A stretch of 64,000 nucleotides of DNA, taken from NCBI RefSeq assembly GCF_005543295.1, contig NZ_SRSG01000007.1, positions 1 to 64,000 on the forward strand, read 5' to 3'. The position numbers and the translations under genes were made by a program. Of the stretch, positions 4,157 through 19,837 are shown one piece after another. The notes under the pieces are model-generated. The model made no database searches. It was not told the origin of the DNA and worked only from the letters and a program-made list of their open reading frames with translations. This DNA comes from Halalkalirubrum salinum. Its GTDB lineage: Archaea; Halobacteriota; Halobacteria; Halobacteriales; Haloferacaceae. Numbering within the stretch: the stretch's first letter is position 1; each line of letters begins with the position of its first letter.

Positions 4157-4341
4157 TGCAAATAGTGGGGCCCTGTTGAAGCCCTAAAGAATTGATAGGG
4201 TCGGCGTGCGAGATACAGAGCGTGAATTCAGCAAGTTCGAGTCGTCTCTATCCAAAATGAATTGGTTGAAACACCGTTAATTGCGTGAGCCATGCTGGTC
4301 AATTTTGACCCATTCTCACCCTACGATCTTGCAGGGAATAT

Positions 4342-4477
4342 TGTTTGTGGAGAGCGATTTGGTGATTTCACCAGGCGACCGTGGTCTACAAGAGGGGTGC
4401 GAGTCTAGTCCAGCGAGGAATTCTATCGGCCCAACTCAATGTATGGGCCGTCACCAACAATCTGCTTCACAAGAGTA
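4342..4477 (+). repeat. direct repeat DR1 (pairs with 5211-5353)
   Basis: Shares with DR2 the ordered words TGGAGAGCG, GCGACCGTG, GGGTGCGAG, GTCCAGCGAGGA, TTCTATC and CTTCACAAGAG over about 140 bp, with scattered substitutions and small indels. It lies upstream of the passenger gene of element A. A short frame through it (MLVNFDPFSPYDLAGNIV then GERFGDF) ends at a stop, so it may be the decayed start of another gene. Confidence 0.7.
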
Positions 4478-4510
4478 TATCATAATACATCTTATGATTG
4501 TAGCAAGTTC

Positions 4511-4518
4511 TATAAATA
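4511..4518 (+). promoter_or_regulatory. TATA box of the two-TM gene
   Basis: TATAAATA lies 28 nt before the ATG at 4539, the spacing of an archaeal TATA box that drives a leaderless transcript. This favours 4539 over upstream in-frame ATGs. Confidence 0.55.
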
Positions 4519-4538
4519 TCGTTGAGCAATTCTCATGT

Positions 4539-5174
4539 ATGTCAATAAGTGACGCAGCCCTCAATTCCCGAGTAACTAATGCTCTATCTGTAGGTCTAAC
4601 CAGTGGGGGTTTGCTTCTGGTAATAATCGGTGTGATACTCACTTTACAAAATATGCGGAATGGGAATTCTGCAGCGACTAGTCACTATTCTTCATTTGTA
4701 ACTGCTTCTGCGACAATAGTATTGGTAGGTGTGACATTATCGTATGCTTCAATTAGCAATCGGATTGCTAACGAGCATCAGAAAGACCGGCAACAGCGGA
4801 AGAATCAACGAGAAGAGGCAGCGAAGGGTCTGAGAAGGGCATTACGAAACGAGATCATGTCGGACAGTAACTACGACGACGCTATGGATTGGTCGTTGCA
4901 GGAGCTCATTACCGTAGAATCGTGGAGAAACGACAGACTGTACCTACAGAATGCTACACGGATGCATTTATTGACGGAAACTGAGATAGATAAGATTATT
5001 GGTTTTTATACAGCACAAAAATCGGTCGATAATATATGTAGCTCATACGAGACCTCAGATGATCTTCCTGAGAATTATGGTCGACTACATGAGAGAATCA
5101 GAAACAAACTCAAGGAGCTAGATACCGCACAAAAAAAGGCTAAATCTGAAATTGAACAGCATCTGGTTGATTAA
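4539..5174 (+). CDS. two-TM membrane protein with cytoplasmic helical tail (passenger of element A)
   Basis: A 211-residue protein starting MSISDAALNS. Two TM helices at about 20-38 (SGGLLLVIIGVILTL) and 52-72 (ASATIVLVGVTLSYAS) are followed by a charged, probably coiled-coil tail (EHQKDRQQRKNQREEAAKGL onward) ending KKAKSEIEQHLVD. The start is chosen from the TATA box at 4511. A longer frame from 4281 would translate the DR1 repeat and is rejected. No family recognised. The architecture (short TM hairpin plus helical cytosolic part) resembles many uncharacterised haloarchaeal accessory membrane proteins, some of which sit in defence islands, but no function is claimed. It occupies the place of the transposase in a TIR element. 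Confidence 0.65.
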   Translation: MSISDAALNSRVTNALSVGLTSGGLLLVIIGVILTLQNMRNGNSAATSHYSSFVTASATIVLVGVTLSYASISNRIANEHQKDRQQRKNQREEAAKGLRRALRNEIMSDSNYDDAMDWSLQELITVESWRNDRLYLQNATRMHLLTETEIDKIIGFYTAQKSVDNICSSYETSDDLPENYGRLHERIRNKLKELDTAQKKAKSEIEQHLVD

Positions 5175-5210
5175 AATCAAATGATTTCTTGACGCTCCTA
5201 TAGAGAGCAC

Positions 5211-5353
5211 TGTTGGTGGAGAGCGGTTCGGTAACTTTGCTGTGATTTAACCAAGCGACCGTGATCTCCAAGGTGGGTGCGAGGCTGGTCCAGCGAGGAG
5301 TTCTATCAGCCGAATACACGGGTCGTCACTAACAATTAGCTTCACAAGAGCAT
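5211..5353 (+). repeat. direct repeat DR2
   Basis: Second copy of the roughly 140-bp repeat described at 4342-4477, in the same orientation, directly downstream of the two-TM gene and upstream of the right-end box. The two copies bracket the gene, so the gene could have arrived between, or be removable by recombination between, the copies. Confidence 0.7.
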
Positions 5354-5555
5354 TTTTGACTACTCTGATGCGAGATATGCGGTGTGTATTCAGCAAGGCT
5401 GTTGAAACTTATCATCGATTGAGGGTTTCAACAAGGCTTTAAAAATCGAAAAAGAACCTGAACAGCTCATCGTACAGGAGACAGACGGTCGCGGCTGATT
5501 TTTTCATATACAAATGAAATGAGATGAGCGGGAGCTCAGGAATTCGCTCTGTTGA

Positions 5556-17797: not shown

Positions 17798-17804
17798 AAT
17801 CTTT
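17798..17804. repeat. target-site duplication, left copy
   Basis: AATCTTT directly abuts the left terminal repeat at 17805 and is repeated exactly at 19549-19555 directly after the right terminal repeat. Confidence 0.75.
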
Positions 17805-18007
17805 GGGCTCTGTTGAACTCCTCAATTAGTGATACTTTTCACCGAGCTTGCTGAATACACAGCGCGAGTCGGGGACGGTACTGATGGGAGTATGTCGGCG
17901 GTAGTTGGGGAGGGGTCGCCAAATTGGGGTGCCTATTCGCTGCTGTTCGGGTCGTCTATCGGCACTGTCCTCGCACGCTGTAATTCCTGATGATAGAGTA
18001 ATAATTA

Positions 18008-19414
18008 GTGAGTAGAGATGGAAAGCAACCTGTGACACTAGAAGACTTTTCAGAGGAGCAACGACAGTCCGTCGAGACGTTCATCTCGGACTGGTTGACC
18101 CAACATCGGATTCCCGGGGCTGCAGTAGCCGTCACCGAGGAGGGCTCGGTGGTCGCGGAAGGGTTCGGCGCCCGAACGCTTGAGAACAACACGCCGGTGA
18201 CCGGAGACACGCTGTTCGGTATCGGTTCCTGTACCAAGGCGTTCACCGCGACGGCCATCATGCAACTCGTCGAGCAGGGTGAGTTGGCACTCGATGATCC
18301 GGTCGACGAGTATATCCCGCATCTGATTGATGTGCCCGGTGAGCCGGTCACCGTCGAAGAGTTGCTCACGCACACCTCGGGTATGCCGAGCGACGACGTT
18401 GCACTGCCGCTTGTGGCCCGGCAATTCGGCGCCGGGGGTGAGGTGCCCTTATCAAGTGAAGCAGATTACCGCCGCCATGTTCAGGGGTCGACCGACCGTC
18501 GAGTCACCGACCGCGAGACGTTCTTTTACTACAACTCGGGCTATATCATGCTCGGGCGCATCATCGAGACAGTTTCCGGGAAAGAGTTCGCAGCGTACCT
18601 CGAAGAGGAGCTACTGAGCCCGCTCGGCTTAGAACGAGTGACGTTCGACCGAGATGTTTTCGAGGAAGACGACGATCGGATGACTCCGTACATGAAACAG
18701 GAGGGGCAGTCGGCGGAAGCGCCGTTCCCGTTCGACCCGCTCATCTATCCCGGGGGAGGACTCGTCAGCTCGGTACGCGATCTCGCTCACTTCGTGCGTG
18801 AGCTGTTAGACGGTGAAAGCGGCGATGAGGCTCTCCTGACGGCTGAGAGTCGCGCCTCAATGACCTCTCCGGTTGCGACACGTTCACGGTATCTTGATGG
18901 GAAGGAGGTCGGGTATGGATACGGACTCGCTATCGAGGAATTTCTCGGTGACGACCTGATCAGCCACGGGGGGTCAATCGGTGTGTCGAACGCATGGTTC
19001 GGATATCTAGAGGAAGCGGAACTCGGCGTCGCCATCGCTTGCACGACCACGCCCGAGACACACCCAGCCAAGGCCGGGAGGGGGGTTTTGGCGCTTCTCA
19101 AAGACGAAGACCCCGACGAAGTTCTCCCGTACTACCAACTCAAGAATGCGCTGAAGACGGCGTCGGGCGAGTATGCCGGGTACCAGAGCATCTCTCAGGC
19201 CAGCGTCGAACGCATTGGAAGCAACCTGAAACTACAGGTAGAGACAGCCGCTGGTGGGCAGGAGTTTCTACTCGTGCCTACATCCGTCGAAGAGGCACAG
19301 TTGAGTTGTACGACAGCTGACCCGATGGGCATGAAACAGGATGTTCGCTTCGAGCTACAGGGCGATGAGGTTGACCTCTTTATCAGCCGCTTTCGGTTTA
19401 CCAAGTCAGCCTGA
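18008..19414 (+). CDS. serine beta-lactamase/PBP-like hydrolase (passenger of element B)
   Basis: A 468-residue protein with a GTG start at 18008 (no ATG fits upstream of the conserved domain). It has class C beta-lactamase/D-peptidase family motifs: S-x-x-K in GIGSCTKAFTATAIMQLV (S74, K77), Y-x-N in FFYYNSGYIMLGRI (174-176) and HGG in LISHGGSIGVSNAWFGY near 320. Extra signatures are LTHTSGMPS and YGYGLAIEEF. The C-terminal about 100 residues are an added beta domain (YAGYQSISQASVERIG onward). No signal peptide is seen, so it is probably cytosolic. Archaea lack peptidoglycan, so substrates are more likely peptides, esters or small amides. Codon use is richer in GC than the flanks, in keeping with transfer. 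Confidence 0.85.
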   Translation: MSRDGKQPVTLEDFSEEQRQSVETFISDWLTQHRIPGAAVAVTEEGSVVAEGFGARTLENNTPVTGDTLFGIGSCTKAFTATAIMQLVEQGELALDDPVDEYIPHLIDVPGEPVTVEELLTHTSGMPSDDVALPLVARQFGAGGEVPLSSEADYRRHVQGSTDRRVTDRETFFYYNSGYIMLGRIIETVSGKEFAAYLEEELLSPLGLERVTFDRDVFEEDDDRMTPYMKQEGQSAEAPFPFDPLIYPGGGLVSSVRDLAHFVRELLDGESGDEALLTAESRASMTSPVATRSRYLDGKEVGYGYGLAIEEFLGDDLISHGGSIGVSNAWFGYLEEAELGVAIACTTTPETHPAKAGRGVLALLKDEDPDEVLPYYQLKNALKTASGEYAGYQSISQASVERIGSNLKLQVETAAGGQEFLLVPTSVEEAQLSCTTADPMGMKQDVRFELQGDEVDLFISRFRFTKSA

Positions 19415-19493
19415 GCCGCCAGTTGTGTAGCTCGCCAGCGGCAGACAGCTCTTTTACCCAGTCACGAGGCGGTGCTGTTTGTTCGGGACTCAT
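19398..19493 (-). pseudogene. possible transposase N-terminal stump
   Basis: Starts ATG at 19493, 27 bp inside the right TIR of element B, and reads MSPEQTAPPRDWVKELSAAG then ELHNWRLRLTW before a stop that overlaps the end of the beta-lactamase-like gene. A start codon this close to an IS end is where a transposase would begin. Similarity appears to stop where the passenger gene begins. No family recognised from 31 residues. Confidence 0.35.
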
Positions 19494-19548
19494 GCTGACT
19501 ATATGCAGCACGCGCTTCCTATCAGTTGCTGAGGGTTTCAACAAGCCC

Positions 19549-19555
19549 AATCTTT
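19549..19555. repeat. target-site duplication, right copy
   Basis: AATCTTT immediately after the right TIR of element B, identical to 17798-17804. Confidence 0.75.
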
Positions 19556-19764
19556 GATATAGCAATCTCAAATCCATCGATCCGATGTGTTTGACCCGGT
19601 CGAACCCTAGTATTATGTGCGTGCGCTGTCATTCAAATGTAAGCGAATCGCATGACAATGGCGACCCCCATCACGGAGCGTGACGAAATCAACACGGCCG
19701 AAGAGGGGTTCTTTTATAAGTGTCGTACTGCCGTCTGCCAAATGTTAGTCGTCACGCAGAATGA
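19556..19764. other. intergenic stretch between element B and tRNA
   Basis: No gene seen. A CTTTTATAAG word near 19712 could be a TATA box. No copy of the tRNA 3' end was found by eye. Confidence 0.35.
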
Positions 19765-19837
19765 CGGGCGCGACGGGATTTGAACCCGCGACATCTTGGT
19801 CCGGAACCAAGGACTCTGTCCACTGAGCTACGCGCCC
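19765..19837 (-). tRNA. tRNA-Arg (anticodon CCG)
   Basis: A 73-nt cloverleaf on the minus strand. The acceptor stem GGGCGCG pairs with CGCGCCC, with discriminator G at 19765. The D-arm is GCTC...GAGT, the anticodon stem CTTGG/CCAAG has loop TTCCGGA giving CCG (reads CGG, Arg), and the T-arm is GCGGGTTCAAATCCCGT. There is no intron and no encoded CCA. It divides AT-rich accessory DNA (left) from GC-rich core DNA (right), with its 3' end facing left. Confidence 0.95.

Follow-up and report, generated by a model that had tools for sequence, protein, structure and literature searches.

The window analysed here, a 64,000-nucleotide stretch of a draft haloarchaeal genome (3.4 Mb in 62 contigs), contains at positions 17806-19548 a 1743-bp unit in which translation and search reveal one complete gene between imperfect inverted ends. 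An exact 8-bp direct repeat, AATCTTTG, flanks this unit on the left (17798-17805) and again on the right (19549-19556). The neighbours are an ADP-ribosylglycohydrolase-like gene on one side and, on the other, a minus-strand tRNA-Arg (CCG) gene (19765-19837), which lies about 210 bp past the right end and is untouched by the unit.

Results

Ends and boundaries

From the left tip inward, the unit displays a terminal inverted repeat, GGCTCTGTTGAACTCCTCAATTAGTGATA (17806-17834, plus strand), with one mismatch to the family pattern GGCTCTGTTGAAAYCCTCAnnnnnTGATA, and a subterminal box, TGCTGAATACACAGCGCG (17849-17866, plus strand), that is conserved at left ends in many genomes. The corresponding right-hand features, both on the minus strand, are the terminal inverted repeat GGGCTTGTTGAAACCCTCAGCAACTGATA (19520-19548), with three mismatches to the pattern, and the box TGCTGCATATA (19500-19510). 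Two end types are distinguished by the placement of the box: a TGCTGAATACA-like box begins some 43-53 bases in from the tip of a 'casL' end, and some 36-42 bases in from that of a 'casR' end. The left end here is of the casL type and the right end of the casR type, with its box about 5 bp closer to the tip; over 30 bp the two ends are identical to each other at 20 positions. Inverted ends with a flanking duplication of 7 bp had been proposed for this locus from the window's sequence; both are present, but the duplication is 8 bp long and the element starts at 17806, because alignment of the ends with those of relatives shifts the boundary by one base.

The insertion is further delimited by an orthologous, unoccupied site in a congener (G006, the one congener compared), which bears a single target copy, ATTTTTTG. 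When the window's flanks are joined with one copy of the repeat, they align to this site without a break at the junction, in a single match of 954 bp and 95% identity; the empty site that the original prediction had called for in a relative thus exists. The congener's target differs from the duplicated AATCTTTG at 2 of 8 positions, which is presumably normal for two species at such a distance.

The serine hydrolase cargo

The gene inside the unit, which had been recognized from the outset as a complete serine hydrolase gene, runs on the plus strand from a GTG start at 18008 to a stop at 19414 and encodes 468 residues. Its product matches the catalytic domain PF00144, with the motifs SCTK (residue 74) and YYN (174) corresponding to SxxK and YxN, as well as HGG (320) corresponding to HxG, and it also matches the octamerisation domain PF13969. 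Through both of these domains it aligns over its full length with the archaeal protein Pab87 (PDB 2QMI; E 2.9e-77). Plasmids of Haladaptatus, Halobaculum and Haloprofundus carry homologues with the annotation 'serine hydrolase'. Hence an archaeal host is no surprise, contrary to the earlier view that such a gene is unusual in an archaeon; judging from these homologues, the hydrolase is of a type common in haloarchaea. A class C beta-lactamase was considered and rejected: NF033085 scores 93.5 bits where 415 are needed, and all class C models fall far under their cut-offs, so that the sequence gives no ground for a resistance-gene label. The hydrolase may confer something on its host.

GC-richer codon use had been taken as a sign of transfer. 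The gene's GC content is 0.59 (window, 0.57) and its third-position GC content is 0.68, within the range of 0.31-0.80 spanned by neighbouring genes, and the argument therefore lapses. Nor is this hydrolase generally borne on cassettes, since no cassette ends surround the other loci of its family that were inspected (L018-L029). A hydrolase search of genome contigs returned distant bacterial relatives only, from a set that may be without records of close kin.

Neither a transposase nor, between the hydrolase gene and the ends, a remnant of one was found within 17806-19548 by translation and search. The right-end box and a 31-codon minus-strand reading frame beginning MSPEQTAPPRDW (19401-19493), which overlaps the end of the hydrolase gene, had been interpreted as the start of a transposase; a search of the genome for a transposase starting in this way returned the window copy and one 41% chance match only, and related transposases start with MDALPKSRLLRF or MQTLPKSQLLRF. 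The frame is therefore probably fortuitous. Transposase-bearing insertion sequences (IS) with related ends do exist, as had been anticipated, but none of them starts with MSPEQTAPPRDW.

Related units in the window and in the same genome

A second stretch of the window, 4169-5438, is probably another cassette of the same family, judged by its ends (plus strand at 4169, minus strand at 5438), which enclose one open reading frame of about 212 residues with a weak, sub-threshold match to DUF7269. No matching duplication flanks this stretch (TAGTG on one side, TTTAAAAAT on the other), so it would be either old or rearranged. A lone, degenerate end of the family type, GGCTTTGTTGAAATATTTATCAGATGATA, occurs at 2674 (plus strand), with no partner identified.

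Elsewhere in the genome the ends recur. Allowing up to 3 mismatches, the family pattern matches 32 times, and a reversed control matches 0 times. At least eight transposase-less units are flanked by 8-bp duplications whose copies agree in 7 or all 8 bases. Besides the hydrolase unit in the window, these comprise: a second hydrolase cassette on contig C32 (L002, 1276-3033; duplication GTCAACTT); units for a CPBP-type protease (C20; GCCTATTC), a YihY/BrkB-type membrane protein (C19; CTGATAAT/CTCATAAT), a secreted-looking protein (C58; CAAATTAT) and an Lrp-like regulator (C42; GTTCATTT); a unit with an AbrB-like gene paired with a PIN-domain gene (C16; AGTGAGTT/GGTGAGTT); and a gene-less unit of 348 bp (L315, on C5; AAACAGAT). 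The two hydrolases are paralogous, 62% identical as proteins, and the ends of their cassettes have diverged from each other. At the site of the C32 cassette, the congener shares both flanks, with a different intervening 940 bp. Another pair of ends, also on C58, surrounds a UspA-like gene and lacks a matching duplication.

A family of cassettes across Halobacteria

Applied to fetched loci, an end finder returned 53 distinct inverted-end pairs whose flanking 8-bp duplications agree in 7 or all 8 bases; a few of these pairs are nested, or are alternative ways of pairing the ends at a single locus (e.g., L134). By a motif test, 34 of the pairs enclose no transposase, eight of them in the genome under study, and 19 enclose one. 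The transposase-less pairs include 18 that join casL to casR and 8 that join casL to a diverged partner; IS-type pairs with a transposase make up 13 of the 53.

As had been expected, further cassettes with similar ends enclose different genes. The cargos are mutually unrelated, with a mean column identity of 7% under forced alignment, and they fall into toxin-antitoxin pairs, kinases, regulators, hydrolases, transporters, or no gene at all. Examples, named from Pfam matches where present and elsewhere from the author's reading of the sequences, are a VapBC-like pair (L075), a ribbon-helix-helix/RelE-like pair (L133), a nucleotidyltransferase gene with its neighbour (L149), a PAS/response-regulator histidine kinase (L146), an alpha/beta hydrolase (L168), pentapeptide repeats (L139) and HVO_A0261-type regulators (L185). 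A scan of the cargo for defence genes yielded scattered weak matches only, and no enrichment is claimed.

Several members bear directly on mobility. The histidine kinase cassette of L146 (2794 bp, duplication AAATAACC) and that of L160, in another species and between unrelated flanks, share 97.9% identity from one end to the other, and the match stops within 2 bases of the ends; the duplication around the L160 copy does not match. At L129 (637-2004) one cassette (duplication AGCGTAAC) lies inside another (ACCTCGCC), and both duplications are exact at 8 bp. Other members resemble miniature inverted-repeat elements (MITEs), namely L152 (178 bp) and L315.

Among 292 genomes of the class, 168 have a match to an 81-bp left end, spread over 60 of 77 genera, and so do 78 plasmid records. 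Since this query was taken from an element with a transposase, the figures count ends, those of autonomous elements included, rather than proven cassettes. A search of phage records with the same left end gave no match.

A candidate helper transposase

The helper-type transposases belong to the IS5 family (NF033579, cut-off 140 bits; scores of 210 and 220 bits, E 4e-62 and 5.5e-65) and also match PF01609 (DDE_Tnp_1). Most transposase-bearing elements have a transposase-proximal end on one side and their own type of distal end on the other. In L140 (CCTAGCCC), L280 (GTTCCAGC) and L286 (CGCCGTTT), however, the transposase-proximal end is combined with casL, and the duplications are exact; L282 has the same ends as L286 and a duplication matching at 7 of 8 positions. 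(L140, L280 and L282 are among the 19 transposase-bearing pairs; L286, a near-copy, is the fourth.) The reverse hybrids, in which casL is joined to the IS distal end without a transposase, are L152 (CGTATTTC) and L315, and L308 and L324 are probably further transposase-less hybrids of an IS distal end and a cassette-type end, likewise with duplications. Ends of the casR type were found with casL or casR partners only.

A transposase able to insert units bounded by an IS end on one side and casL on the other must act on casL. It is mainly such units that suggest that an IS5-type transposase could move the cassettes in trans. The short outer repeats leave room for the possibility that a related but different transposase recognizes them.

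One intact transposase of this group is present in the genome under study, on contig C10 (273 residues, duplication ACATGAGA), in an element with the IS_Tp end type; no autonomous element ending in casL turned up among the 62 contigs of the draft. In five elements (L280, L279, L282, L286 and L195) a transposase and a passenger share one end pair. In L279 (2090-4443) the passenger is a cytochrome P450 gene, beside an IS5-type transposase and between transposase-proximal and casL ends, with a duplication that is not clean. An IS5-type element at L096 (476-2819), with the exact duplication ACACTGCT, has an IS1595-type transposase gene nested within it.

Discussion

The most satisfactory explanation, and one that is held with good confidence, is that the stretch 17806-19548 represents a transposable gene cassette of the non-autonomous kind, a mobile insertion cassette (MIC), whose ends are the substrate of an IS5-family transposase acting in trans. 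This agrees with the original prediction of a transposase-less cassette with IS-type ends: one gene without a transposase, an exact duplication, and an empty site in a relative. The unit combines what characterizes a MIC, namely IS-related inverted ends, insertion as a unit with a target duplication, and a non-transposase gene in place of a transposase; its outer repeat is common to transposase-bearing elements, and its casL end to L140, L280, L282 and L286. Inasmuch as an autonomous IS5 element encodes an IS5-type DDE transposase and 17806-19548 does not, the hydrolase cassette is not filed as an IS. Nor is it a MITE, a class of short, non-coding elements, since it comprises 1743 bp and a gene of 468 codons.

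Mechanistically, an autonomous element would supply a haloarchaeal IS5-family DDE transposase in trans; this enzyme would recognize the asymmetric casL and casR ends and cut the unit out at them; staggered cuts at the target, followed by repair, would leave the 8-bp duplication; and the Pab87-type hydrolase gene, together with its own start region, would ride as a passenger. Both the action of the IS5 transposase on the hydrolase cassette and the cut-and-paste character of its movement are deduced from comparisons of sequences.

The alternative that survives best, yet is unlikely, is that a full-length IS or transporter IS arrived with both transposase and hydrolase and that the transposase was later deleted in place. 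The five elements that hold a transposase and a passenger within one end pair show that such an ancestor is conceivable, but the lack of any transposase remnant between the hydrolase gene and the ends speaks against a deletion. So do the many transposase-less units that have intact casL and casR ends and exact duplications, and the kinase cassette, likewise without a transposase, that two species share from end to end at different sites. Because of these last two observations, the transposase-less form itself appears to be mobile.

It is very unlikely that a transposase or recombinase other than IS5, such as one of the IS1595 or IS6 type, moves the cassettes. An 8-bp duplication by itself would allow this, inasmuch as several IS families generate duplications of that length, IS1595-type and IS6-type elements among them. 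The transposases found in casL-ending units, however, are all IS5-type, for which reason IS6, suspected from a GGCTCTGTTG start, was set aside. IS1595 (PF12762) was rejected likewise: no such transposase occurs in the genome under study, and the ends around 30 fetched IS1595 genes are not of the family type, one nested case excepted.

That the ends are merely ordinary intergenic inverted repeats beside an unrelated gene, an artefact of chance or composition, is hardly conceivable: single short inverted repeats are indeed common and the hydrolase cassette's ends are imperfect, but among 70 unique inverted pairs of the end pattern, less than 6 kb apart and gathered from fetched loci, 21 have an exact 8-bp duplication and 10 a 7/8 match, whereas 4736 combinations of left and right flanks from different elements gave 0 exact duplications and 0.3% with a 7/8 match; the 31 unique pairs with 7/8 or 8/8 duplications include 21 exact at 8 bp and 0 at 6, 7 or 9 bp; the genome holds 32 matches to the pattern against 0 to its control; and the orthologous empty site in the congener refutes this explanation outright.

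Heavy gene exchange is a known trait of haloarchaea; descriptions of small vehicles that carry single chromosomal genes are, to our knowledge, few. Taken as a mobile insertion cassette, the unit at 17806-19548 and its relatives suggest that single genes may be moved around with borrowed IS5-type machinery across salt-loving archaea. A broader picture is put forward tentatively, with rather less than even confidence: that Halobacteria maintain an order-wide cassette economy, in which asymmetric cassettes without a transposase, each carrying one or a few selected genes (for toxin-antitoxin systems, sensors, regulators or hydrolases), form a shared pool that a few common IS5-type helpers move within and between species. 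If true, this economy would be functionally comparable to that of integron cassettes, with a DDE transposase replacing the integrase. In practical terms, an end pair together with an 8-bp duplication would provide a direct listing of recently moved genes in any haloarchaeal genome, so that cargo can be sought through its ends instead of its function, and mobilisation in trans becomes open to test; in the one genome scanned (32 matches against 0) the end pattern is sharp enough for use in annotation pipelines.

Comparison with known systems

A literature search covering both the repeat sequence and haloarchaeal cassettes, with most subscription journals outside its reach, found no description of the casL/casR family, which is therefore regarded, provisionally, as new. 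Its general kind is not: MICs, MITEs and transporter IS (tIS) are established (PMC3129680), and haloarchaeal MITEs, as well as the movement of ISH2 in trans by ISH8, have been described (PMC3119063, PMC10264941). With MICs the cassettes share IS-type ends, a target duplication, a passenger gene, the lack of a transposase and presumed mobilisation in trans (PMC3129680); what distinguishes the haloarchaeal set is that it forms a large, order-wide family with asymmetric casL and casR ends, tens of unrelated cargos and, in one genome, at least eight units. In a tIS a transposase and an unrelated passenger occupy one end pair (PMC3129680), as in L280, L279 and L195; the window unit shares one end type with these three but lacks the transposase.

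ISH1 is a haloarchaeal IS of the IS5 family that generates 8-bp duplications (PMC10264941). It resembles the autonomous relatives of the cassettes in its IS5-type DDE transposase and its duplication length, whereas the window element carries no transposase. The passenger, for its part, shares both domains with Pab87 (2QMI), an enzyme of the penicillin-binding/beta-lactamase fold, and differs from it in sitting within a mobile cassette. Another haloarchaeal parallel is ISH2, a 531-bp element of Halobacterium that has been called a MITE and is mobilised in trans by the ISH8 transposase (PMC10264941), and for which a coding open reading frame has been reported (PMC3119063). Like the cassettes, for which trans mobilisation is presumed, ISH2 lacks a transposase and has a non-transposase reading frame; but whereas ISH2 has 10-bp duplications, ISH8-type ends and one small open reading frame, the cassettes have 8-bp duplications, a candidate IS5-type helper and diverse full genes.
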